From a virus, in IMG/VR virus record IMGVR_UViG_3300028569_001145, positions 40,702 to 104,701 of that record: a DNA stretch of 64,000 bases; one strand, 5' to 3'. The notes below the pieces were generated by a model. The model was not told where the DNA came from. It was given only the letters and a program-made list of their open reading frames with translations, and did no database searches. Positions 46-41,128 of this stretch are shown one piece after another. The translations under genes and the position numbers were made by a program. Numbering within the stretch: the first letter of the stretch is position 1; every line of letters starts with the position of its first letter.

Positions 46-128
46 GCAGATGTGGCGAAACTGGTAGACGCACTAGACTTAGGATCTAGCGTTGTAATGA
101 CATGGGGGTTCGATTCCCTTCATCTGCA
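46..128 (+). tRNA. tRNA-Leu (anticodon TAG)
   Basis: Acceptor GCAGATG (46-52) pairs with CATCTGC (121-127) and is followed by discriminator A. The D arm has the class II form ending GGTAGACGC. The anticodon stem CTAGA/TCTAG encloses loop CTTAGGA with anticodon TAG, and a long variable arm precedes a TTCGATT T loop. CCA is not encoded. Confidence 0.93.
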
Positions 129-134
129 CAATAA

Positions 135-210
135 GCCCCCTTAGCTCAGTTGGTAGAGCTTCTGATTTGTAATCAGACGGTCGCAGGTTCGAGTCCTGCA
201 GGTGGCTCCA
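135..210 (+). tRNA. tRNA-Thr (anticodon TGT)
   Basis: Acceptor GCCCCCT pairs with AGGTGGC with one mismatch. D stem GCTC/GAGC, anticodon stem TCTGA/TCAGA with loop TTTGTAA, and T arm GCAGG-TTCGAGT-CCTGC are all canonical. The 3' CCA is encoded (TCCA at 207-210), unlike most RNAs in this cluster. It begins 7 nt after the tRNA-Leu. Confidence 0.92.
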
Positions 211-212
211 AA

Positions 213-410
213 GTGAAACTTTTCCTACATAGGACGGATAAGCACCGTTGAAAGAGAACTTGGCTTCGTGGGAGTAGCTACCCAATGAAGTAATCATGTC
301 CCAAGTTGTAATGTGATGGACCCTGCTCTATGGTGCACTCATAACAGGTGAACAGTAAACTATGTTCAGTCAAATCCACAACTACGGTGAGCGTAGAGGA
401 TTAGTTTCAT
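213..410 (+). ncRNA. multi-helix structured RNA between tRNAs
   Basis: The 207-nt gap between tRNA-Thr and tRNA-Met has no convincing ORF but is closed by a 7-bp helix, GTGAAAC (213-219) with GTTTCAT (404-410, one G-U). Inside are helices 223-226/231-234, 234-237/245-248 (competing at one base), AACTTGG 257-263 with CCAAGTT 301-307 (containing 264-267/287-290 and 270-272/281-283), TGAACA 349-354 with TGTTCA 363-368, and AATCC 373-377 with GGATT 398-402 (containing CTACG/CGTAG 382-386/392-396). The pairing is read by eye. I recognise no RNA family and assign no function. Confidence 0.5.
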
Positions 411-417
411 TTAAATG

Positions 418-486
418 GCGGATTGGTGTAATGGTAACATATTGGGCTCATAACCCAAAGTTTATAGTTCGAGTCTATAGTCCGCA
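418..486 (+). tRNA. tRNA-Met (anticodon CAT)
   Basis: Acceptor GCGGATT pairs with AGTCCGC (one G-U). The anticodon stem TTGGG/CCCAA holds loop CTCATAA, and the T loop is TTCGAGT. The D arm is short (TGT/ACA). A CAT anticodon could also be an Ile tRNA modified to read ATA; the sequence alone does not decide. Confidence 0.88.
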
Positions 487-536
487 ACTAAACGTACTTA
501 GTATCATACCATAAGAACTGCTACTAGGTCTTTTTA

Positions 537-600
537 CAACCTGTACCCTTGAAAAACTCGTATTTAAAGATAAGCAGGTTGGTTCCGAAATAAAAGGGTA
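537..600 (+). ncRNA. candidate pseudoknot in tRNA spacer
   Basis: Two perfect 7-bp complementarities interleave: CAACCTG (537-543) with CAGGTTG (575-581), and TACCCTT (544-550) with AAGGGTA (594-600). The a-b-a'-b' order makes them a pseudoknot or two alternative helices. The first loop is 0 nt and the middle loop 24 nt, so simultaneous formation may be strained. It lies in the 133-nt gap between tRNA-Met and the first tRNA-like module. Confidence 0.5.
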
Positions 601-619
601 AGAGAATAAGGAACAAAAT

Positions 620-692
620 AGTCAGGTAGCTCAATGGTAGAGCGGGTCCGTAACAGGAGATGCCGTAGCAAGTTCGATTCTTGTCCTGACTA
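620..692 (+). tRNA. tRNA-like module A (irregular anticodon arm)
   Basis: Acceptor AGTCAGG (620-626) pairs perfectly with CCTGACT (685-691), followed by discriminator A. D arm GCTC/GAGC and T arm GCAAG-TTCGATT-CTTGT are good. The anticodon arm is not canonical: stem GGTCC is matched by GGA plus CC only if GATG (659-662) is bulged out, leaving a 6-nt loop GTAACA. No anticodon is assigned. This is the first of seven modules with the same acceptor stem. Confidence 0.6.
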
Positions 693-717
693 CAAAAAAA
701 ATTAAAAAATAAATGTT

Positions 718-792
718 ATGAAAGATTATTACATTGACAACAGAGAGTATTACTTATGGTGTATTGAAAATAATGTAATACCATATTGTTAA
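718..792 (+). CDS. possible 24-residue micro-ORF
   Basis: ATG at 718 opens a 24-codon frame rich in Tyr, Asn and acidic residues, starting MKDYYIDNREYY and ending in TAA. It occupies the spacer between tRNA-like modules A and B. The same bases contain interleaved complementarities (ATTACATT/AATGTAAT and TTGACAA/TTGTTAA with one G-U), so the stretch may be structured RNA rather than coding. No ribosome-binding sequence is visible. Weak call. Confidence 0.2.
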   Translation: MKDYYIDNREYYLWCIENNVIPYC

Positions 793-797
793 AATAT

Positions 798-880
798 AGT
801 CAGGTGGCGGAATGGTAGACGCTCCGGGGAATGGACACCGGTTAGAAACCATGTTGCAGGTTCGAATCCTGTCCTGACTA
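798..880 (+). tRNA. tRNA-like module B (class II shape, odd anticodon loop)
   Basis: Acceptor AGTCAGG/CCTGACT is perfect. The D arm GCGGAATGGTAGACGC is of the Leu/Ser class II kind, and the T arm is GCAGG-TTCGAAT-CCTGT. The expected anticodon arm is CCGG/CCGG (4 bp) with a 10-nt loop, so no anticodon can be placed. A small AAC-CAT-GTT hairpin sits where a variable arm would be. Length 83 nt is normal for class II. Confidence 0.55.
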
Positions 881-884
881 CAAA

Positions 885-961
885 GTGTTGTTCCATTGAG
901 AACGGAATGTATAAGAGTAAGACTAAACGTTGCTACAACACAGAGGATTTCTCACCCTCAA
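885..961 (+). ncRNA. structured spacer between modules B and C
   Basis: GTGTTGT (885-891) is perfectly complementary to ACAACAC (935-941), with TTCC/GGAA nested inside. TTGAG (896-900) can also pair with CTCAA (957-961), which would make the arrangement interleaved. The first helix is convincing; the second is only 5 bp and may be chance. Confidence 0.35.
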
Positions 962-964
962 CAT

Positions 965-1061
965 AGTCAGGTGGCGCAATTGGCAGACGTTGTTCCGAAG
1001 TACAAGGAATGTAAAATGGGTTCATACTCATAGCATGCAAGTTCGAATCTTGCCCTGACTA
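965..1061 (+). tRNA. tRNA-like module C (9-nt anticodon loop, long variable arm)
   Basis: Acceptor AGTCAGG/CCTGACT and T arm GCAAG-TTCGAAT-CTTGC are intact. The D arm is GCG...CGT. The anticodon-arm position has GTTCC/GGAAT (one G-U) with a 9-nt loop GAAGTACAA instead of 7. A variable-arm hairpin ATGGG/CTCAT follows. At 97 nt it is longer than a usual class II tRNA. No anticodon is assigned. Confidence 0.55.
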
Positions 1062-1063
1062 CA

Positions 1064-1110
1064 AATTCAGTTATCGGTGGGCAAGTCTGAATTAAAACAA
1101 AATCTTGCCC
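1064..1110 (+). ncRNA. H-type pseudoknot in spacer C-D
   Basis: AATTCAG (1064-1070) pairs with CTGAATT (1087-1093), and GGGCAAG (1079-1085) with CTTGCCC (1104-1110). Both helices are 7 perfect base pairs in interleaved order. Loops are 8, 1 and 10 nt, and the last is A-rich: textbook H-type geometry. It fills nearly the whole 54-nt spacer. Function unknown. Confidence 0.65.
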
Positions 1111-1115
1111 AACAT

Positions 1116-1279
1116 AGTCAGGTGGCGGAATTGTTTGGCGCTGGGATAAAAACTGGGGCCTGAGACATTGGTAGACGCTATTATCTGAGACGCTGGGCGT
1201 GATTCTCGTTCGATTCGAGAAGTAGACTCTGGTGGGAGTAGGCGCAGCTCACTTACAGGTTCGAATCCTGTCCTGACTA
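1116..1279 (+). tRNA. tRNA-like module D with inserted segments
   Basis: Acceptor AGTCAGG/CCTGACT and T arm ACAGG-TTCGAAT-CCTGT match the other modules, but the element is 164 nt long. Compared with module G, the D loop is interrupted after GCGGAATTG (1125-1133) by about 37 nt ending in a repeated ATTG (about 1167-1170), after which GTAGACGC resumes. Downstream lies a second T-arm-like hairpin, TTCTCG-TTCGATT-CGAGAA (about 1212-1230), so the module looks like a mosaic of tRNA pieces. No anticodon is assigned. It may be a broken gene. Confidence 0.45.
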
Positions 1280-1293
1280 CACAGAGTTATCTT

Positions 1294-1346
1294 ATAATTT
1301 ATTCTACTCTTTCCAAAAACGGTATAAATTATGGCAGCTTGGAAAG
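1294..1346 (+). ncRNA. H-type pseudoknot in spacer D-E
   Basis: ATAATTTAT (1294-1302) pairs with ATAAATTAT (1324-1332), 9 bp perfect. CTTTCCAA (1309-1316) pairs with TTGGAAAG (1339-1346), 8 bp perfect. The order is interleaved, with connecting loops of 6, 7 and 6 nt. The sequence is unrelated to the C-D pseudoknot while the topology is the same. Confidence 0.65.
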
Positions 1347-1357
1347 ACAAGCAATAC

Positions 1358-1484
1358 AGTCAGGTGGCGGAATGGTAGACGCAGGTTGGTATTAAGTGTC
1401 GGTAATCAAGACGGGTGTATAAGCAATAGAAGCCCTGAGAGAAAAGCACACCTCATCACACAGGTTCGAATCCTGTCCTGACTA
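1358..1484 (+). tRNA. tRNA-like module E (127 nt)
   Basis: Acceptor AGTCAGG/CCTGACT, D arm GCGGAATGGTAGACGC and T arm ACAGG-TTCGAAT-CCTGT are intact. About 77 nt separate D and T arms, far more than in a normal tRNA. The only clear helix there is GGTGT/ACACC. No canonical 5-bp stem with a 7-nt anticodon loop was found. Confidence 0.45.
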
Positions 1485-1509
1485 CGGTTCTGTGCTGCCT
1501 AAACGTACA

Positions 1510-1542
1510 GGAGGATGTCAACTTTCCTCTAACAATAGTTGA
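1510..1542 (+). ncRNA. compact pseudoknot in spacer E-F
   Basis: GGAGGA (1510-1515) pairs with TCCTCT (1525-1530, one G-U), and TCAACT (1518-1523) with AGTTGA (1537-1542). The order is interleaved with loops of 2, 1 and 6 nt, typical for a minimal H-type pseudoknot. Helices are 6 bp, so chance is less easily excluded than for the two preceding spacers. Confidence 0.5.
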
Positions 1543-1545
1543 GTT

Positions 1546-1618
1546 AGTCAGGTGGCGCAACGGTGACGCTGTGGAGTCGCTCTCTGCATTGATACAGGTT
1601 CGAATCCTGTCCTGACTA
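1546..1618 (+). tRNA. tRNA-like module F, nearly canonical (possible CGC anticodon)
   Basis: This is the only module with close to standard dimensions (73 nt). Acceptor AGTCAGG/CCTGACT, D stem GCG/CGC, anticodon stem GTGGA/TCTGC with two G-U pairs, 7-nt loop GTCGCTC (T33 present, CGC at 34-36) and T arm ACAGG-TTCGAAT-CCTGT. CGC would read Ala codon GCG, but the wobble pairs make the assignment tentative. Confidence 0.55.
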
Positions 1619-1671
1619 CAAAAATACATCAACGTATTGGGGATCAAACCTCGTTAGGCTCTGGGTATTTT

Positions 1672-1803
1672 AGTCAGGTGGCGGAATTGGTAGACGCTCA
1701 TAAAGTTGTGGAATAGCACTTTGAAAAGAGAAAGCTCACATTATAGTTAGAAGCTATTTATGGATAGTTGCAAATAATACAGGTTCGAATCCTGTCCTGA
1801 CTA
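1672..1803 (+). tRNA. tRNA-like module G (132 nt)
   Basis: Acceptor AGTCAGG/CCTGACT, class II D arm GCGGAATTGGTAGACGC and T arm ACAGG-TTCGAAT-CCTGT are intact. The 82-nt interior contains CATAAA/TTTATG as a possible closing helix and an AAAGT/ACTTT hairpin. No normal anticodon arm is visible. The preceding spacer (1619-1671) is bounded by AAAATAC/GTATTTT. Confidence 0.45.
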
Positions 1804-1880
1804 CCAAAAAAAATCGTAGTACCGAAAGGGAACAATGTAGAAGGAACATCTACAGCAGGTTAAGCGATATCCTGTATTTT

Positions 1881-1953
1881 GGACTTTTAGCTTAATTGGC
1901 CAGAGCGTGACACTGATAAAGTCAAGATACAGGTTCAAGTCCTGTAGAGTCCA
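1881..1953 (+). tRNA. tRNA-Ile (anticodon GAT)
   Basis: Acceptor GGACTTT pairs with AGAGTCC (one G-U), followed by A. The D stem GCTT/GAGC is good. Anticodon stem TGACA/AGTCA has one terminal mismatch and loop CTGATAA. T arm is ACAGG-TTCAAGT-CCTGT. Its acceptor differs from modules A-G, while its T stem is the same as theirs. Confidence 0.85.
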
Positions 1954-2064
1954 CACCTTAAAACCGATTCGGGTTCGTGAACAAGGGAGGCCCGTTCTTC
2001 TCGTGCAAGAAAGAAATCACGTTAAATCTCCTCATTCCAGGTGGCGGCGGTGACCTGGTAATAT
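1954..2064 (+). other. spacer with hairpins, no gene
   Basis: Contains the hairpin CCAGGT (2037-2042) with ACCTGG (2053-2058) and a CGTG...CACG hairpin around 2001-2020. An open frame crosses this stretch but also runs through the tRNA-Gln and is not believed. Confidence 0.35.
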
Positions 2065-2136
2065 TACCTCCTCGTCTAACGGCAGGACAAGTGGTTTTGG
2101 TCCACTTAATCGAGGTTCGAATCCTTGGGAAGGTAG
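2065..2136 (+). tRNA. tRNA-Gln (anticodon TTG)
   Basis: Acceptor TACCTCC pairs with GAAGGTA with one mismatch. D stem GTCT/GGAC, anticodon stem AGTGG/CCACT with loop TTTTGGT, and the TTCGAAT T loop are present. The T stem is only 4 good pairs. Confidence 0.82.
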
Positions 2137-2160
2137 CAATAGAGTTTTTGATTTTTGGAC

Positions 2161-2168
2161 TATTTATA
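2161..2168 (+). promoter_or_regulatory. late promoter motif TATTTATA, endonuclease gene
   Basis: Exact TATTTATA ends 4 nt before the ATG at 2173, giving the endonuclease gene its own unit inside the RNA cluster. Confidence 0.6.
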
Positions 2169-2172
2169 TTAA

Positions 2173-2790
2173 ATGGTTAACATATCAAAGCTTAGAAAAT
2201 ATCATTTCCTATACAAGACTACTAATCTTGTAAATGGGAAGTACTACTATGGAATGCATTCAACAAATAACCTTAAAGACGGTTATTTAGGCAGTGGAAA
2301 GTACTTATGGTATGCGATTAAAAAATACGGGAAAGAAAATTTTTACATTGAAATTTTAAAGTTCTTTGAAACAAGGGAAGCTTTAATAGAAGCAGAAAAG
2401 AAACTTGTAACTGTTGTCGAAGTTAATAATTCAAATTGTATGAATTTAAAACCCGGAGGTAAGGGGGGATTTAAAGACTCTAAACATAGGGAAGCTTTTG
2501 TTAATAGTATACCTGTAGATAAAAAAAGAGAATATGCATTTAAAAGACATAAACAAGGTGTTTTCGGTTTTAAAGGTAAAAACCATAAACCTGAAACTAT
2601 TGAAAAGATGAAGTTACATAAAGGTAAACAAGCAAAAGAAAAGAATTCTCAGTTCGGAACAAAATGGATTACAAATGAGATTGAAAATAAAAAAATAAAA
2701 GTTACTGATCAGATTCCAGAAGGATGGAGAGCGGGTAGAAAAATAAAGTTGGATTTTAAGCAAGAAGTTCGTATAATTATAGCAACATAA
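2173..2790 (+). CDS. GIY-YIG homing endonuclease (Seg type)
   Basis: Residues about 12-90 form a GIY-YIG nuclease domain: YHFLYKTTN, then YYYGMHST, an LGSGKYLWYAIKKYG segment and the expected downstream Glu (IEAEKKL). The C-terminal half has a NUMOD3-like DNA-binding segment (GKNHKPETIEKM) and a tail (FGTKWITNE ... PEGWRAGRK) of the kind found in T4 Seg proteins. At 205 residues it is a normal size for a free-standing enzyme. It would cut phage DNA lacking the gene and spread itself. It sits within the tRNA region; tRNA clusters of T4-like phages commonly host such genes. The start follows TATTTATA by 4 nt. Confidence 0.9.
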   Translation: MVNISKLRKYHFLYKTTNLVNGKYYYGMHSTNNLKDGYLGSGKYLWYAIKKYGKENFYIEILKFFETREALIEAEKKLVTVVEVNNSNCMNLKPGGKGGFKDSKHREAFVNSIPVDKKREYAFKRHKQGVFGFKGKNHKPETIEKMKLHKGKQAKEKNSQFGTKWITNEIENKKIKVTDQIPEGWRAGRKIKLDFKQEVRIIIAT

Positions 2791-2794
2791 AGGG

Positions 2795-2807
2795 AGTTCT
2801 TTGACAT
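2795..2807 (+). promoter_or_regulatory. second boxA-like element
   Basis: AGTTCTTTGACAT is identical to 19-31. Flanks also agree (a further TTA and A-run downstream). It lies 28 nt before the membrane protein gene and upstream of tRNA-Met 3150-3223. The first 11 bases are repeated inverted at 3127-3137. Confidence 0.5.
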
Positions 2808-2834
2808 TTTAAAAACAAGAAAGGAAAAAACAAA

Positions 2835-3116
2835 ATGGAAATTACATCATTCGTTTTAGGTATGCTTACGGTTACAGGTTTGGCAATTGCTGTACTTGTA
2901 GTTTTAGGTATAGTTAAGATTTACAACCAAGGCAAGAAAATTGCAGAATTAAAACAATCAATTGGATTAGTTGAAAACAATTCAAACGATTGGATTATGC
3001 AACTAGAAGAACAAATGTGCAGGAATTTTGATGACATTAGACGTGAGTATTCGTCTTATGTAGATTCACGTATTGACAGGCTTCAGTCAAATAAAAAGGA
3101 GGCAATAACTAAATAA
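2835..3116 (+). CDS. small single-pass membrane protein
   Basis: The 93-residue product has one strongly hydrophobic N-terminal helix (about residues 5-28) followed by a charged, probably coiled-coil region with heptad-like spacing and no recognised catalytic motif. An N-in inner-membrane topology is likely. An A/G-rich tract (GAAAGGAAAA) precedes ATG; unlike late genes it has no TATTTATA. It lies between the second boxA and tRNA-Met, so it is probably expressed with the RNA locus. Function unknown; a lysis or host-takeover role is only one possibility. Confidence 0.6.
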   Translation: MEITSFVLGMLTVTGLAIAVLVVLGIVKIYNQGKKIAELKQSIGLVENNSNDWIMQLEEQMCRNFDDIRREYSSYVDSRIDRLQSNKKEAITK

Positions 3117-3126
3117 TCATTAACCC

Positions 3127-3137
3127 GTCAAAGAACT
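3127..3137 (+). repeat. inverted copy of the boxA core
   Basis: GTCAAAGAACT is the exact reverse complement of 2795-2805. In a transcript covering both, the 11 bases could pair and hide the boxA, or form a long-range hairpin enclosing the membrane protein gene. Confidence 0.4.
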
Positions 3138-3149
3138 TTTCCTTTATTT

Positions 3150-3223
3150 GGACCTTTAGCTCAGCAGGTTAGAGCAGCGCTCTCATAAAGCGAAGGTCTC
3201 TGGTTCGAATCCAGAATGGTCCA
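3150..3223 (+). tRNA. tRNA-Met (anticodon CAT), second copy
   Basis: Acceptor GGACCTT pairs with ATGGTCC apart from one T-T. D stem GCTC/GAGC, loop CTCATAA, and T arm TCTGG-TTCGAAT-CCAGA are present. It differs clearly from the CAT tRNA at 418-486, so the two probably serve different roles (initiator, elongator or modified Ile). Confidence 0.88.
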
Positions 3224-3256
3224 CAACGCAGTCAGATGCCCGTAGCTACGGTTTAA

Positions 3257-9684: not shown

Positions 9685-9692
9685 TATTTATA
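9685..9692 (+). promoter_or_regulatory. late promoter motif TATTTATA, gp25-gp6 unit
   Basis: Exactly 4 nt before ATG 9697. Confidence 0.6.
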
Positions 9693-32107: not shown

Positions 32108-32352
32108 AAGTAGGAGAAAACTACGTTATAAGAGAGTTCAATCAGAATATCGATCCGATTGAACTTTTATGGCACCGCGACAATGAAGACCGTATGATTG
32201 AAGTATTAGAATGCGGTGAAGGTTGGGGATTTCAATTTGATGACGGACTTCCTTTTGATTTAGAGCCAAGTACATCTATATTTATACTAAGACACGATTG
32301 GCATAGAGTTATAAAAGGAACAGATAGGTTATTAATAAAGATCAGTAAATAA
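32083..32352 (+). CDS. small cupin-like protein
   Basis: 89 residues. LLWHRDNEDRMIEVLECGEGWGFQ and HDWHRVIKGTDRLLIKI fit a single cupin barrel, with the His-x-Asp and a later His as possible metal ligands (short quotes of a longer match). It overlaps its neighbour by 25 nt. Similar small cupins occur near terminase genes of T4-like phages as I remember them. Enzymatic activity cannot be inferred. Confidence 0.55.
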   Translation: MEKPYRDIEVGENYVIREFNQNIDPIELLWHRDNEDRMIEVLECGEGWGFQFDDGLPFDLEPSTSIFILRHDWHRVIKGTDRLLIKISK

Positions 32353-32690
32353 TGAAAGACTTACTATACATTGTAATAGGGATAGTTGCAGGCGCTTGGA
32401 TATACTCAAAATACTTTAGTAAAAAGCCACAATCTCTACCAGACACTTCTGTTTATGAAAACAGGATAGATTCTTTACAGAAAGCTATTATAGCTGATAA
32501 AGCTAAACTTACAACTTATGATTCTATAGCAACAGCTCAAGAAACTAAGATTGCAAAATTGAATAAGAAATTACAAGATATAGCTGATGAAGCTGCTCAA
32601 CAACAAAAACAACATGAAGAAGATATTCAGCGTATTGGCGCTATGTCTAATAATGACATCGCCTCTACATTCGCAGAAAGTTTTAAATGA
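32352..32690 (+). CDS. inner-membrane coiled-coil protein, i-spanin-like candidate
   Basis: 112 residues: one N-terminal transmembrane helix (about 4-20), a short linker with prolines, then a long periplasmic-type coiled coil (SLQKAIIADKAKLTTYDSIA to the end). This is the layout of Rz-type inner-membrane spanins. A second reading frame begins within its 3' part (32614), as in the overlapping Rz/Rz1 class. No endolysin or holin is recognised nearby, so the role is tentative. Confidence 0.5.
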   Translation: MKDLLYIVIGIVAGAWIYSKYFSKKPQSLPDTSVYENRIDSLQKAIIADKAKLTTYDSIATAQETKIAKLNKKLQDIADEAAQQQKQHEEDIQRIGAMSNNDIASTFAESFK

Positions 32691-33018
32691 TACCTGCTGT
32701 GTACCTTGCCAGGCATTGCGCAAAGCTCTGATAATGAAATCAGAGAAAGAGTTATTAGAGAAGAAACTTAAAAATACTAGAGATACTATCAGTGTTTACT
32801 CTGAAGCTTTACTTGCTAAAGATACTATAATAACAGCACGAGATAGTTCTATTGCTGTCTATATCCGTAATGAAGGGCGTCATAATGAAATTATAAACAA
32901 TAAGGACTCTATTATTACAACATACGGGCAAGAAATACAGAATCAAAAGAACCAAAAAATAGGTGTTATTATAGCTCTAGTAATAACTATTCTAACTTGG
33001 ACATTAACTAGTTTATGA
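32614..33018 (+). CDS. secreted/membrane protein overlapping the i-spanin-like gene
   Basis: Start ATG 32614 gives a clear signal peptide (MKKIFSVLALCLIMTSPLHSQ); an in-frame ATG at 32587 would add nine residues before it. The mature part has CC and CxxxC-like cysteines, a coiled-coil body (SEKELLEKKLKNTRDTISVY) and a C-terminal hydrophobic helix (VIIALVITILTWTLTSL). It overlaps the preceding gene by 77 nt in another frame. There is no proper lipobox, so it does not fit a classical Rz1 lipoprotein. Lysis-partner function is a hypothesis. Confidence 0.5.
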   Translation: MKKIFSVLALCLIMTSPLHSQKVLNDTCCVPCQALRKALIMKSEKELLEKKLKNTRDTISVYSEALLAKDTIITARDSSIAVYIRNEGRHNEIINNKDSIITTYGQEIQNQKNQKIGVIIALVITILTWTLTSL

Positions 33019-33866
33019 GTTCACCAGACTTAAAACAAATTATTCGACAGGAATATGTAAAGTGTGCTGTAGATCCGGTGCATTTTATGAAAAAATACTG
33101 CTATATCCAGCACCCACAACGTGGTAGAATCTTCTTCCAACTGTACCCATTTCAAGAAAAAGTATTAACTCACTTTCAAAATAACCCATACTCAATCGTT
33201 TTAAAATCAAGACAGTTAGGATTATCGACTCTTGCTGCTGGATATTCACTATGGTTGATGCTTTTTCATAAAGATAAGAACGTACTAACCCTAGCAACTA
33301 CTCAAGCTACTGCCCGGAACCTAGTAACAAAGGTTCAATTTATGTATGATAACCTCCCAACATGGTTAAAGATAGATGCAGTAGAGAAAAACAAATTAAG
33401 CTTAAGGTTATCTAACGGATCTAAAATTACAGCTAAATCTTCAAACTCGGATTCTGCCCGTTCAGAAGCAGTATCGTTACTACTAGTAGACGAGGCAGCC
33501 TTTATTGAAAACATTGCAGAGACATGGGCATCAGCACAACAGACACTTGCAACAGGGGGAGGAGCAATTATACTTTCAACACCGTATGGTACCGGTAACT
33601 GGTTTCACCAGACATGGGTTAAAGCCGAACAAGGAGATAATAACTTTTTACCGATCAAACTACCATGGTACGTTCACCCAGAGCGTGATCAGACTTGGAG
33701 AGATGCACAAGATGCTTTATTAGGAGATCCAAGACTTGCAGCACAGGAGTGTGATTGTTTATGGGGCCCGACTCTAGTCACTGTACAGGATATACAAACA
33801 GGAGAAGAAAAAATAATATCTTTAGAAGATTTATATTGGGAATTACAAGAATGTGACTATTTATAA
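33015..33866 (+). CDS. 17: terminase large subunit, N-terminal part fused to a split-intein N fragment
   Basis: 283 residues. Residues 1-247 are the ATPase half of a gp17-like terminase: Walker A-type LKSRQLGLST (63-72), Walker B LLLVDEAA (155-162) and a coupling motif STPYGTGNW. At Cys248 (base 33756) the sequence changes into an intein N-terminus, CLWGPTLVTVQD with TGEEKIISLEDL (block A), and stops after 36 residues. The normal terminase continues in the gene at 34619. The last codons TAT-TTA-TAA are themselves the late promoter for the next gene. The N fragment cannot package DNA alone; trans-splicing with the 34619 product would restore a 526-residue enzyme. Confidence 0.88.
   Translation: MSSPDLKQIIRQEYVKCAVDPVHFMKKYCYIQHPQRGRIFFQLYPFQEKVLTHFQNNPYSIVLKSRQLGLSTLAAGYSLWLMLFHKDKNVLTLATTQATARNLVTKVQFMYDNLPTWLKIDAVEKNKLSLRLSNGSKITAKSSNSDSARSEAVSLLLVDEAAFIENIAETWASAQQTLATGGGAIILSTPYGTGNWFHQTWVKAEQGDNNFLPIKLPWYVHPERDQTWRDAQDALLGDPRLAAQECDCLWGPTLVTVQDIQTGEEKIISLEDLYWELQECDYL
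33858..33865 (+). promoter_or_regulatory. late promoter motif overlapping the split-intein N stop codon
   Basis: TATTTATA forms codons 282-283 and most of the stop of the N-terminal terminase gene. It lies 23 nt before ATG 33889 and would drive the endonuclease and the C-terminal terminase gene. Confidence 0.5.
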
Positions 33867-33888
33867 TAGGAAGACCTTCTTGAGCATT

Positions 33889-34635
33889 ATGAATCAAAGT
33901 CAAAGAACAAAAAAAAGCTGGGAAAAAAGAAAACAGGAAATACACGCTGCAGGAGTATACACTCGACAAGAAACCGTGGAGAAATTAATGCAGGACGGGT
34001 ATTACAAAACACTTAAAGGTAAAGCTAAAAACAGGACACTGAGTAAGGAGAATAAAAAACTGTTTAACTCAATATATAAACACACAGAGGAACTGGAGAA
34101 AACCTTTAGAGACCAGGGAGCATATAAAATTAACTACAGCTTTTACTATAGGATTTTATTTTTAGTAGAACACAACTCAAACTTAGACCAACTAAAATGT
34201 AAATGCGGTAGAAAGTATACATGGACAACCTACTGCAGGCACTGCCCAGAATACAAAAAAACATTTGCAGGTAAAAAACATACAGAAGGTACAAAGCTAA
34301 AAATGAGAATATCGGCATTAAACTACCTAGAAGAAGCTAAAGGGCAGCTGATGCCAAGGTATAATAAGCAAAGCATTCCTGTTATAGAGGCATACGGTAA
34401 AAAACACGGGTATAAATTTATGCATGCTGAAAACGGGGGAGAGTATTTTATAAGAGAGCTTGGCTATTTTTTGGATGCCTATGATCCTATTCAGAATATT
34501 GCTCTAGAAGTTGATGAGAAACATCATTTTAACAACAATGGGGAAATAAGAGAACGTGATTTAGAGAGACAAAAACAAATTGAAAACCTACTAGGGTGTA
34601 CCTTTATAAGAATAAAGCATGATAACACTTTATAA
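33889..34635 (+). CDS. Vsr-like homing endonuclease nested in the split terminase gene
   Basis: 248 residues from ATG 33889 (the frame is open from GTG 33853, inside the upstream gene). The N-terminal half is basic and helical. A Cys/His cluster (CKCGRKYTW ... CRHCPEY) follows at about 100-125. The C-terminal nuclease core reads GYFLDAYDP, NIALEVDEKHHF and RQKQIENLLGCTFIRI, a Vsr/EDxHD-type PD-(D/E)XK fold. Free-standing endonucleases of this type are known in genes fractured by split inteins (Dassa et al. 2009). It probably cuts unsplit terminase genes and copies itself in. It overlaps the next gene by 17 nt. Confidence 0.82.
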   Translation: MNQSQRTKKSWEKRKQEIHAAGVYTRQETVEKLMQDGYYKTLKGKAKNRTLSKENKKLFNSIYKHTEELEKTFRDQGAYKINYSFYYRILFLVEHNSNLDQLKCKCGRKYTWTTYCRHCPEYKKTFAGKKHTEGTKLKMRISALNYLEEAKGQLMPRYNKQSIPVIEAYGKKHGYKFMHAENGGEYFIRELGYFLDAYDPIQNIALEVDEKHHFNNNGEIRERDLERQKQIENLLGCTFIRIKHDNTL

Positions 34636-35782
34636 AAACCAGAAATATAAAATAAAAACCCCGGATGGGTATCAATTTTTCGAAGGAATAAGACGAACAA
34701 CTAAGGATAAAGTTCTCATAGTTGAGTTTACAGACGGCACAAAAACAGAATGTTCGGAAGAGCATATCTTTGTAGTTGGTACGGAACAAATCCTTGCAAA
34801 AAATTTAAAACAAGGTACCAAACTTAGTTCAACAAAGGAGGTAGGCAGTGTTAGAGCCGGGGGAACTTCTAAATTTTTGTACGATCTTGTACAGGTAGGT
34901 ACAGAACATATCTACATAACAGATGGATTCGTGTCACACAACTGTGATTTTGCTACATCTGGAGATACAGTATTCTACGGGGAATACATGGAGTTCTACG
35001 AACAGACCTATATGAAAGAGCCCCTAGAGAGAAGAGGTGTAGATAGGAATTTATGGATATGGGAACCTGTAGATTACTCTAGAAGCTACATGGTTATTGC
35101 TGACGTAGCAAGAGGAGATGGTAAAGATTATTCTGCTTTCCATATATTAGATATCGAGAACAATACACAAGTAGGAGAGTATAGGGGACAATTACCCCCT
35201 AAAGAATTTGGACACCTTTTAGTAGGGGTAGCCACAGAGTACAATACAGCACTACTGGTAGTAGAAAATGCAAATATTGGATGGTCTACTATTGAAACTA
35301 TTTTAGAAAGAGCTTATTCAAACCTATACTATTCTCCAAGATCAGGTAATGTTTCTGCAGATTCTTATTTCGATCAATATGATCAGAGTTCAAACATGGT
35401 ACCTGGATTTACTATGAATTCAAGAACTAGACCGTTAGTCATTGGCAAATTTCAAGAATACTTTAATGAGAAAGCTGTGATTATACAGTCTAAACGTTTA
35501 ATGGAAGAGATGAAGGTCTTTGTTTGGAAAAATGGACGAGCAGAAGCACAAGGAGGTTATAATGATGACTTGGTGATGTCTTTCGGAACAGCTATGTATG
35601 TCAGGGATACTGCTTTAAAGTATAGACAGCAGGGATTAGACCTAACACGTAATGCCCTTAATAATATAACAGTTACAAAAGCACCGCATCAAGCCGTTTA
35701 TATGCCTACAAATTTTCAAAATCCTAATCTAATAGACAACCACAAAGGAGGTCAAGAAGATATTTCTTGGATATATAAATAA
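34619..35782 (+). CDS. 17: split-intein C fragment fused to terminase large subunit, C-terminal part
   Basis: 387 residues. Residues 1-108 are the rest of the intein: a block B-like CSEEH (His49), block F FLYDLVQV (86-93) and block G DGFVSHN, ending in His107-Asn108. The +1 residue is Cys109 (base 34943). Residues 109-387 are the terminase nuclease half, starting CDFATSGDTVF, with IADVARGDGKDYS (Asp162), a Glu in LLVVENANIGWS and the acidic pair in GGYNDDLVMS. Fusion after ECD of the upstream product gives the AQECD-CDF transition expected for gp17. The long C part with a 36-residue N part is the atypical split described for AceL-TerL. Confidence 0.88.
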   Translation: MITLYKNQKYKIKTPDGYQFFEGIRRTTKDKVLIVEFTDGTKTECSEEHIFVVGTEQILAKNLKQGTKLSSTKEVGSVRAGGTSKFLYDLVQVGTEHIYITDGFVSHNCDFATSGDTVFYGEYMEFYEQTYMKEPLERRGVDRNLWIWEPVDYSRSYMVIADVARGDGKDYSAFHILDIENNTQVGEYRGQLPPKEFGHLLVGVATEYNTALLVVENANIGWSTIETILERAYSNLYYSPRSGNVSADSYFDQYDQSSNMVPGFTMNSRTRPLVIGKFQEYFNEKAVIIQSKRLMEEMKVFVWKNGRAEAQGGYNDDLVMSFGTAMYVRDTALKYRQQGLDLTRNALNNITVTKAPHQAVYMPTNFQNPNLIDNHKGGQEDISWIYK

Positions 35783-35802
35783 AAGTAACTGGCTTTCTTT
35801 CC

Positions 35803-35810
35803 TATTTATA
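35803..35810 (+). promoter_or_regulatory. late promoter motif TATTTATA, portal gene
   Basis: 19 nt before ATG 35830. Confidence 0.6.
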
Positions 35811-35829
35811 CTTATATTGTTGATTACAC

Positions 35830-37722
35830 ATGGCAGATACCAGTATACTTAGCAGACTACGTAGATTATTTTCTACTGATGTTATTATTAGAAACGTCGG
35901 AGGAGAACAACTAAAAGTTGCTGACACCAATCAAATTCAAATGTCCGGAGAGTTGGAAAATAACTCTCTTTTTTCTAGATACAATAGAATATACACGACA
36001 TCCCCAACATCCCTCTACGGATACCAATCATCATTTAACTACCAGACTTTAAGAACCCAATTGTATTCTGAGTATGATGCTATGGATACTGATGCAATTA
36101 TTGCTTCAGCTCTAGACATTCTTTCAGAAGAATCTACCTTGAAAAACGATATGGGGGAGGTTTTGCATATCCGATCTACAGATGAAAATATTCAAAAGAT
36201 TTTATACAATTTATTCTACGACGTATTAAATGTTGAATTTAATTTAAGCTGGTGGATTAGAAATATGTGTAAGTATGGAGATTTTTTCTTAAAATTAGAA
36301 ATCTCTGAGAAGTTTGGAGTCTACAATGTCATTCCTTTTTCTGCATTTAATATAGAAAGACAAGAAGGTTACGACCCAGAAAACCCAATGAAGGTACGAT
36401 TCAGGTACGACCCTGATGGACTTGCAGCAGATACTTATGGATATTTTAAGCTACCTAATCAAAACGATAGCAAATCCCTTTACTTCGATAACTATGAGAT
36501 AGCACACTTCAGATTACTAACAGATATCAACTTCTTACCTTATGGCCGTTCTTATATTGAACCTGCTAGAAAGTTATTCAAGCAGTATACCTTAATGGAG
36601 GATGCAATGTTAGTACACAGGATTGTAAGAGCTCCTGAGAAGCGTATTTTCTATATGAACGTAGGTGGTATCCCTCCTACAGAAGTAGAGAACTTTATGC
36701 AGAAAGCTATCTCTAAGATGAAACGTACCCCTTATATTGATCAAACAACCGGTGAATATAATCTTAAGTATAACATGCAGAACCTTATGGAGGATTTCTA
36801 CATTCCTGTGAGAGGTAATGACACTTCAACTAAGATTGATACTTTAGGGGGTTTGCAGTATGACGGTATAACGGACGTTACATACCTAAGAGACAAGTTA
36901 TTTGCTGCTTTGAGAATTCCAAAAGCATTTTTAGGTTATGATGAGAACGTTCAAGGTAAAGCAACACTTGCTGCTGAAGATATTCGCTTTGGTAGAACAG
37001 TAGAGAAAATACAGAGAATCATTACTTCAGAACTATATAAGATTGCTTTTGTGCATCTATATACACAAGGTTATACAGAAGAGGGGTTGACTAACTTTGA
37101 AATTTCTTTAACTACTCCATCTATTATTTACGACCAAGAAAGAGTAGCTTTAATGAAAGAAAAAATGGAGTTAGTAAACTCTATGATGGATTCTCAACTA
37201 TTCTCTTCTGATTGGATTTATGATAATATATTCCACTTAAGCCAAGATGAATACGCAGAAATGAGAGACCTTGCTCTACAAGATGCTAAACGTAAATTCC
37301 GTATGTCGCAGATCGAAAACGAAGGAAACGATCCTTTGGAGACTGGTAAATCTTTTGGAACTCCACATGATATTGCAACAGCTTACGGCAAAGGTAGGGT
37401 ATACGAGAGACCAGGTAACGTACCGGATGGCTATAATGAGGACGAACCTACTTTAGGTCGCCCTAAAGAAAAAGCATCTCATTACGGAACTCAAAACGAC
37501 CCTCTAGGTCAGGATAGAATCGGCAAAGTAGGTATGAAGACTGATGACCAGCAGGGATACGGTAGAGATAAATCAGCACCATTTGCTATGGAAACAAAGA
37601 AGCATTTCTACAAATACCAGAACATTTTAGATTCTATGACAGAGAAAAAAGTATTGCTATTTGAAGCAGAAAAAACAGCAGAGAATATGCTGGATGAGAG
37701 TCAATTAAGAGAAGAGATTTAA
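35830..37722 (+). CDS. 20: portal vertex protein gp20
   Basis: 630 residues, somewhat longer than T4 gp20. Typical segments are DALD-type repeats around MDTDAIIASALDILSEES, WWIRNMCKYGDFFLKL, YIEPARKLFKQYTLMEDAMLVHRI, RAPEKRIFYMNVGG and AALRIPKAFLGYDENVQGKA. It forms the dodecameric ring where terminase docks. The C-terminal 100 residues are polar, Gly/Asp-rich and specific to this phage. It directly follows terminase, the T4 order 17-20 with sheath and tube genes missing between. Confidence 0.93.
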   Translation: MADTSILSRLRRLFSTDVIIRNVGGEQLKVADTNQIQMSGELENNSLFSRYNRIYTTSPTSLYGYQSSFNYQTLRTQLYSEYDAMDTDAIIASALDILSEESTLKNDMGEVLHIRSTDENIQKILYNLFYDVLNVEFNLSWWIRNMCKYGDFFLKLEISEKFGVYNVIPFSAFNIERQEGYDPENPMKVRFRYDPDGLAADTYGYFKLPNQNDSKSLYFDNYEIAHFRLLTDINFLPYGRSYIEPARKLFKQYTLMEDAMLVHRIVRAPEKRIFYMNVGGIPPTEVENFMQKAISKMKRTPYIDQTTGEYNLKYNMQNLMEDFYIPVRGNDTSTKIDTLGGLQYDGITDVTYLRDKLFAALRIPKAFLGYDENVQGKATLAAEDIRFGRTVEKIQRIITSELYKIAFVHLYTQGYTEEGLTNFEISLTTPSIIYDQERVALMKEKMELVNSMMDSQLFSSDWIYDNIFHLSQDEYAEMRDLALQDAKRKFRMSQIENEGNDPLETGKSFGTPHDIATAYGKGRVYERPGNVPDGYNEDEPTLGRPKEKASHYGTQNDPLGQDRIGKVGMKTDDQQGYGRDKSAPFAMETKKHFYKYQNILDSMTEKKVLLFEAEKTAENMLDESQLREEI

Positions 37723-40511: not shown

Positions 40512-41128
40512 TGAGTAAAAGTCTACTTATAGAAACTATAGCCTTCACTCCTACCCCGCTAAAACTTAGTGAGGGTAAGGGTGGTTCTGGGCTTCCTTTA
40601 GTTGAAGGTATTTTAGCTACTGCCGAAGTTAAAAACGGCAATGGTAGGTATTATAGTAAAAAGATCTGGGATAGAGAAATTAACAAGTATATGGACTCTG
40701 TTAGACAAAATAGAGCCGTTGGAGAATTAGACCATCCTGAATCCACAGTTATTAACCTTAAAAATGTTTGCCATAACATCAAAGATATTTGGTGGAACGG
40801 TGATCACATAATGGGCAAGATTGAATTACTTCCAACACCATCAGGTAATATACTACAAGCATTAATTAACTCAGGTATTACTGTAGGAGTATCTTCTAGA
40901 GGAATGGGATCGGTTAAACAAATGGGAGAGACTTTAGAAGTTCAAGATGATTTCGAGTTGCTTTGTTTCGATTTTGTATCTACCCCATCTAATCCAGGAT
41001 CTTGGATGTACCCAAGTGGGAAGCATACTATGAATGAATCTTTAAATATAGACAGTGAAGGCTACGTAAAAGCTAATGAAATCATTCGAGAAATCCTCTG
41101 TGCACATGGCAACTGTCCATTATTTTAA
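40511..41128 (+). CDS. 21: prohead core protease gp21
   Basis: 205 residues, close to T4 gp21. VEGILATAEVKNGNGRYYSKK, GELDHPE (catalytic His region) and GISSRGMGSV-like VSSRGMGSVK (the Ser) with a DFELLCFDFVSTPSNPGSW segment are the signature of the S77 assembly peptidase family. It cleaves scaffold and capsid proteins after L/I-x-E sites during maturation. It is followed by an HNH endonuclease gene rather than directly by the scaffold. Confidence 0.9.
   Translation: MSKSLLIETIAFTPTPLKLSEGKGGSGLPLVEGILATAEVKNGNGRYYSKKIWDREINKYMDSVRQNRAVGELDHPESTVINLKNVCHNIKDIWWNGDHIMGKIELLPTPSGNILQALINSGITVGVSSRGMGSVKQMGETLEVQDDFELLCFDFVSTPSNPGSWMYPSGKHTMNESLNIDSEGYVKANEIIREILCAHGNCPLF

Follow-up and report, generated by a model that had tools for sequence, protein, structure and literature searches.

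The terL locus

The window analysed here is a 64,000-nucleotide (nt) stretch, positions 40702–104701 of the 104,701-bp IMG/VR virus contig IMGVR_UViG_3300028569_001145. It carries the gene for the DNA-packaging motor (terL), which is broken into two open reading frames (ORFs) between 33015 and 35782 by an intein split in 36 + 108 residues, with a predicted endonuclease gene nested in the gap. The features of the locus, all on the plus strand and in window coordinates, are as follows.

33015–33866, +, TerL N-half, 283 residues; Terminase_6N (8.9e-14) and terminase PHROGs
33015–33755, +, extein-N, the ATPase part, 247 residues
33756–33863, +, intein-N, 36 residues (CLWGPT...QECDYL), followed by a stop; boundary from empty-site relatives, gap 0
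33846–33860, +, CAAGAATGTGACTAT, a half-copy of the insertion site; 11/15 positions shared with the extein junction of this phage, CAGGAGTGTGATTGT; candidate operator, possibly also the 5' arm of a hairpin
33858–33865, +, TATTTATA, candidate -10 element of a late-type promoter, from TAT-TTA-TAA
33877–33882, +, TTCTTG, complementary to CAAGAA in inverted orientation, directly ahead of the endonuclease start and conserved in the lineage
33889–34635, +, nested endonuclease, 248 residues from ATG 33889; helical and zinc-ribbon N-part, Vsr/PD-(D/E)XK-like C-part; 29-member alignment
34619–35782, +, TerL C-half, 387 residues from ATG 34619; overlaps the endonuclease ORF by 17 nt
34619–34942, +, intein-C, 108 residues ending VSHN; profile match to CatC (6dsl), relatives matching exactly from residue 108/109
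34943–35782, +, extein-C, the nuclease part, beginning CDFATSG

Uninterrupted terL, with N- and C-exteins joined at gap 0, is found in all 79 further relatives that were fetched except the truncated L069 (L numbers denote related loci), which fixes the intein boundaries exactly and shows that the nearest lineages lack the element. The closest empty-site gene (L003) has 95/90% amino acid identity, and the closest named relative of this terL is that of Flavobacterium phage immuto, with 57% over extein-C. A profile made from the intein-C of 14 relatives matches CatC, an engineered consensus atypical split intein, with an E-value of 8.2e-24, and the short intein-N, the long intein-C, the cysteine at position 1, the terminal HN and the cysteine at +1 are those of an atypically split intein. 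The host protein and the intein are divided at the intein-N/intein-C boundary with a free-standing endonuclease ORF between them and uninterrupted alleles elsewhere, as in a fractured gene. The original prediction had placed an endonuclease gene inside a split-intein gap, overlapping the C-terminal terminase half by 17 nt, and this is borne out by the ORF layout (the endonuclease ORF ends at 34635), the empty-site relatives and the CatC match. We infer that trans-splicing of the two predicted TerL halves would restore TerL.

The endonuclease could alternatively start at TTG 33880 or GTG 33853, and the relatives point to a start within 33880–33889; the overlap of its ORF with the C-half is 4–17 nt in relatives. 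An AlphaFold (AF2) model from 29 sequences has a predicted local distance difference test score of 89 and a C-terminal restriction-like domain, which matches I-Bth0305I (3r3p) and Vsr (1cw0), both with Z 6.8. The alignment retains the acidic or histidine residues E185, D196, E207, D209/E210, H213 and D224; the Pfam matches are weak (MTES_1575/DUF559/NUMOD3), and a PDB sequence search with the endonuclease profile gave no convincing match. Because other PD-(D/E)XK folds score like 3r3p and 1cw0, and RAP domains score higher (Z about 10), a Vsr-like endonuclease, as had been predicted, with an I-Bth0305I-like catalytic fold is supported, but membership in the EDxHD/I-Bth0305I family, of which the prediction named the EDxHD type, is not proved. 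Most split alleles have a member of this endonuclease family in the gap of terL. The enzyme probably cuts the empty terL insertion site, the expected target in uninterrupted terL being DNA around CAGGAGTGTGATTGTGACTTT. In two other loci (L074:8809-9317 and L075:3262-3861) this nuclease domain, joined to another N-part, is encoded by a free-standing gene directly after the portal gene.

A promoter-like motif in the last codons of intein-N

The N-half ORF ends GAC-TAT-TTA-TAA, and since its last two codons and the stop occupy 33858–33866, they form TATTTATA exactly at 33858–33865, as the original prediction had it. The window holds 29 copies of this octamer against 11.3 +/- 3.3 in shuffles. In the whole contig, where nearly all genes are on the plus strand, there are 36 forward and 8 reverse copies, and 26 of the 36 forward ones lie 8–40 nt upstream of a start codon, a zone that makes up 4.5% of the contig. 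The copy at 33858 is 31 nt upstream of ATG 33889, other sites being at 12–33 nt. The consensus is [AC]TATTTATA, with A or C preceding the octamer in 29 of 30 sites and C at 33858, and there is no conserved -35 region. TATTTATT shows enrichment as well, 4 of 8 copies being in the pre-start zone (0.36 expected). A scan for sigma-70 promoters gave 15 sites with 15.1 expected. The spacing to the ATG is often exactly 12 nt, as in about ten genes (for example at window positions 9685, 12385, 30139, 38817, 41161 and 51483), and the transcripts of these genes would be nearly leaderless if TATTTATA is a -10 element. An octamer of their own is carried by 7 of the 10 homing-endonuclease-like genes of the contig compared to 19 of 113 other ORFs, the annotation of the latter being incomplete. 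Homing-endonuclease-like genes with the octamer 12–24 nt upstream are found at contig positions 1190, 11269, 23196, 29861 and 31875 and at window position 2173.

The phage encodes a sigma factor of 185 residues with regions 2 and 4 (L086:15690-16247, contig 35690-36247), which is a candidate reader of the motif. Being enriched, strand-biased and located before start codons in a phage with its own sigma factor, TATTTATA is a good candidate for a phage promoter, and the promoter-like element predicted in the intein-N stop stands as a motif, by enrichment, strand bias and its presence in relatives. The label late is based on the genes that it precedes, the portal gene and other structural ones, and on analogy to T4.

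The end of intein-N is constrained at the DNA level. Alleles were grouped in clusters, members of different clusters having below 88% nt identity, and 11 clusters of the window's lineage end intein-N with CAA-GAA-nnn-GAC-TAT-TTA (33846–33863). Where two alleles have the same residue, the proportion of pairs with different codons at these six positions is 0.18, 0.00, 0.60, 0.20, 0.00 and 0.00, compared to mostly 0.4–0.6 in the preceding intein-N codons and the extein junction. Nearly all alleles have GAC before TAT-TTA, in a genome where Asp is encoded by GAT in 72% and GAC in 28% of cases. Overlapping endonuclease coding was rejected as the source of this conservation, several alleles having stops in the endonuclease frame there. 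In other lineages TATTTAT[AT] is located in non-coding DNA right after the N-half stop (L122, L123, L126, L128, L135, L176). Three alleles (L106–L108) have the unsplit form of the same terL intein without endonuclease, in which the QE..YLL tail remains as a linker; these residues are kept, but the motif is gone since the codons are TAC-CTG or TAC-CTA. The intein of these three was probably re-fused after endonuclease loss.

A copy of the insertion site beside the motif

In the window TATTTATA is overlapped by a sequence that the original prediction overlooked, a copy of the 15 nt encoding QECDC, which form the left half of the insertion site in its empty state. Relatives were compared as 44 clusters, 34 with the endonuclease and 10 without a full one; the clusters share ancestry and are not independent samples, so that p-values are optimistic and should be seen as guides. 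At least 12 of the 15 positions match the allele's own site in 15 of the 34 endonuclease-positive clusters (0.08 expected), but in just 0.23% of control windows from the same loci, and none of 8,704 control windows reaches 13/15. The strongest copies are 15/15 (L168) and 14/15 (L135, L155, L165, L169, L218 and L225). The copy is in the endonuclease frame, the N-half frame or neither, indicating conservation as DNA, and conservation of a QECDC peptide within the endonuclease was rejected for the same reason. No such copy was seen by eye in four related split inteins inserted two codons upstream, at QE/C and not QECD/C (L245, L246, L251, L254), in which the endonucleases apparently carry one more N-terminal domain, resembling a zinc finger.

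CAAGAA in the copy and TTCTTG before the endonuclease start might form a leader hairpin. In the alignment 82% of cells are complementary between the arms, compared to 37–55% when slid, with some two-sided changes, and taken together the leaders show more structure than stretches elsewhere (p 4e-4). With RNAalifold, 11 alleles yielded only five core pairs and no covariation.

Comparison with known systems

I-TevI of phage T4 has a late promoter inside its element with an overlapping operator that is 15/20 identical to the homing site and is weakly cleaved, and a hairpin hides the ribosome site on read-through mRNA and leaves it free on late mRNA (PMC2988022). The terL locus resembles I-TevI, I-TevII and I-TevIII (PMC2988022) in having an endonuclease nested in a splicing element, a putative late promoter of its own, a sequence like the homing site overlapping it (at least 12/15 in 15 of 34 clusters, 11/15 in the window), and hints of a read-through hairpin. 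The T4 systems are group I introns with GIY-YIG or HNH enzymes, while this is a split intein with a Vsr-like enzyme in which the putative regulatory elements also code for protein and binding and repression are predicted by analogy.

Fractured genes with split inteins and endonucleases of the EDxHD type were reportedly described by Dassa et al. in 2009 (cited in PMC10448857). As there, the host gene and intein of the present locus are in two ORFs, and the gap holds a free-standing gene for a Vsr-like endonuclease. AceL-TerL, GOS TerL and VidaL are atypically split inteins, and like them and CatC the terL intein has a very short intein-N, a long intein-C and a terminase as host gene; it differs in being a natural locus with a nested endonuclease and a putative promoter, splicing being predicted. 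While the fractured-gene architecture is known, we know of no report of regulatory DNA in intein-N codons together with a homing-site copy at a promoter, and this combination looks new.

A split-intein gp17, with the split in the corresponding TerL region (QEH/C..F) and a nested ORF, is also found in Providencia phage PSTRCR_127 (L098) and Serratia phage 92A1 (L099), and in both phages the canonical T4 late motif TATAAATA is located inside the intein-N coding sequence. Compared to the window, the nested ORF is unrelated (GIY-YIG-like by eye) and the motif is further upstream, and no copy of the insertion site was found in the T4-like L098–L100. The TATAAATA inside intein-N of both phages suggests more than one origin for a late promoter at this place, the two related phages being a small sample. 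Aeromonas AsFcp_2 (L100) has its nested ORF fused to intein-C.

Other features of the window

About eight tRNA genes are clustered at 46–3224, with a freshwater-1 sRNA (RF02979) at 312–374. An Rz-like spanin gene with an overlapping ORF, possibly an Rz/Rz1 pair, is located directly upstream of terL at 32352–33018.

Interpretation and alternatives

The reading we favour, and consider reasonably probable as a whole, is that terL of this T4-like phage has been invaded by a mobile element, an atypically split intein whose gap houses a free-standing gene for a Vsr-like homing endonuclease, and that this element carries its own late-type promoter and an operator resembling the homing site. TATTTATA, made by the last intein-N codons and the stop, would be the promoter of the endonuclease, which would bind the half-copy and shut off its own transcription, and the half-copy would be poorly cut because the right half of the site is missing. 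In some relatives the CAAGAA/TTCTTG hairpin might cover the endonuclease start on read-through mRNA and leave it accessible on transcripts from the internal promoter, and trans-splicing would join the two TerL proteins again. The layout of the locus, the empty sites, the enrichment of the motif, the constraint on the DNA and the site copy are seen in the sequences themselves; promoter activity, binding and repression, cleavage and trans-splicing are inferred from them. The promoter is the safer half of this claim and in our opinion likely, while the operator is the bolder half, on which we are close to evenly divided and lean slightly to doubt. Self-repression by the endonuclease is preferred, though unproved, because the locus has the I-TevI layout of a late promoter overlapped by a homing-site-like operator.

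Several observations weigh against this reading. T4-type late promoters are defined by a single -10 element, TATAAATA, without a -35 region, and the motif here is TATTTATA; it may still act like a T4 late promoter, as it precedes portal and structural genes and a sigma factor is present, but one with regions 2 and 4. The exact motif is missing from 18 of the 34 endonuclease-positive clusters, and in a near-identical allele (L112) a synonymous change breaks it. The copy in the window is just 11/15 (shuffle p about 0.007), and about a third of the endonuclease-positive clusters have no recognisable copy. The hairpin shows weak to moderate covariation, and the leader of the window alone is not unusually structured (z -0.4 and -0.12), so that a hairpin in the window itself was rejected as not significant.

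The promoter might be real and serve the endonuclease while the copy is no operator, but either a relic of the entry of the endonuclease gene or a site cut at a low level to provide a DNA end on the donor. The copy is limited to the left half of the site and ends at the insertion point, in the window's lineage it also resembles the extein-intein junction (QECDCL/QECDYL), it is kept in 3 of the 10 endonuclease-less clusters, and low-rate cutting of their own DNA is known for some endonucleases (PMC10448857). A neutral relic should have decayed, yet matches of 14–15/15 persist with endonucleases only about 50–60% identical, in three frames and always beside the promoter position, and we regard this explanation as unlikely, although it deserves attention. 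It is far less probable that the octamer at 33858 is due to chance or to conservation of the DYL tail of the intein-N protein: the genome is AT-rich and the DYL/QE..YLL residues are conserved even in the contiguous intein, but synonymous change halts precisely at the motif, the rare GAC supplies the C before it, and other lineages have it in non-coding DNA.

Equally improbable to us is the interpretation in the original prediction, that one promoter drives both the endonuclease and the C-half, and that the essential C-half thereby protects the endonuclease gene from loss. The overlap of the two ORFs would fit such an arrangement, and retention has been argued in print for T4 promoters that lie within endonuclease genes (PMC2988022). 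Endonuclease-less split alleles should then be rare or keep the promoter, but the split is retained in alleles with no endonuclease, or a remnant, in 13 of the 44 clusters, and the motif near the intein-N stop, present in 16 of the 34 endonuclease-positive clusters and 2.1% of control windows, is found in none of the 10 endonuclease-less clusters (p 0.005); it follows the endonuclease and not the C-half, which supports a promoter that serves the endonuclease. In these 10 [AC]TATTTAT is never kept, L115 having TATTTATA preceded by T. Two such alleles have sisters with at least 88% nt identity: L143 lacks the endonuclease, motif and copy of L128, its N-half end being joined to the C-half start at a common TTATAATTT and an intein-N ATG being available to the C-half, and L129 lacks all but the last codons of the endonuclease of L126. 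Both also lack the promoter and retain the C-half, which can thus live on upstream read-through. The contigs are metagenomic, but several endonuclease-less states are found in more than one assembly, making assembly error unlikely. The nesting, the promoter-like motif and the Vsr-like fold of the original prediction are thus upheld, while the dependence of the C-half on the promoter and the lock on the endonuclease are not.

With more doubt than conviction we propose that a Vsr-like split-intein endonuclease independently evolved self-control in the style of I-TevI, with promoter and operator in or right after the intein-N coding sequence, and that this is conserved across a wide aquatic T4-like family. 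If so, autorepression by a homing-site mimic would be a general solution for phage mobile elements, with unrelated nucleases and in introns as well as split inteins, and the locus would be a natural example of regulatory DNA encoded in intein codons. It would also give a sequence rule for predicting homing sites, namely to search the promoter for a copy, and the dozens of endonuclease-less and contiguous alleles would constitute a readable life cycle of a split intein, from invasion through loss to re-fusion.
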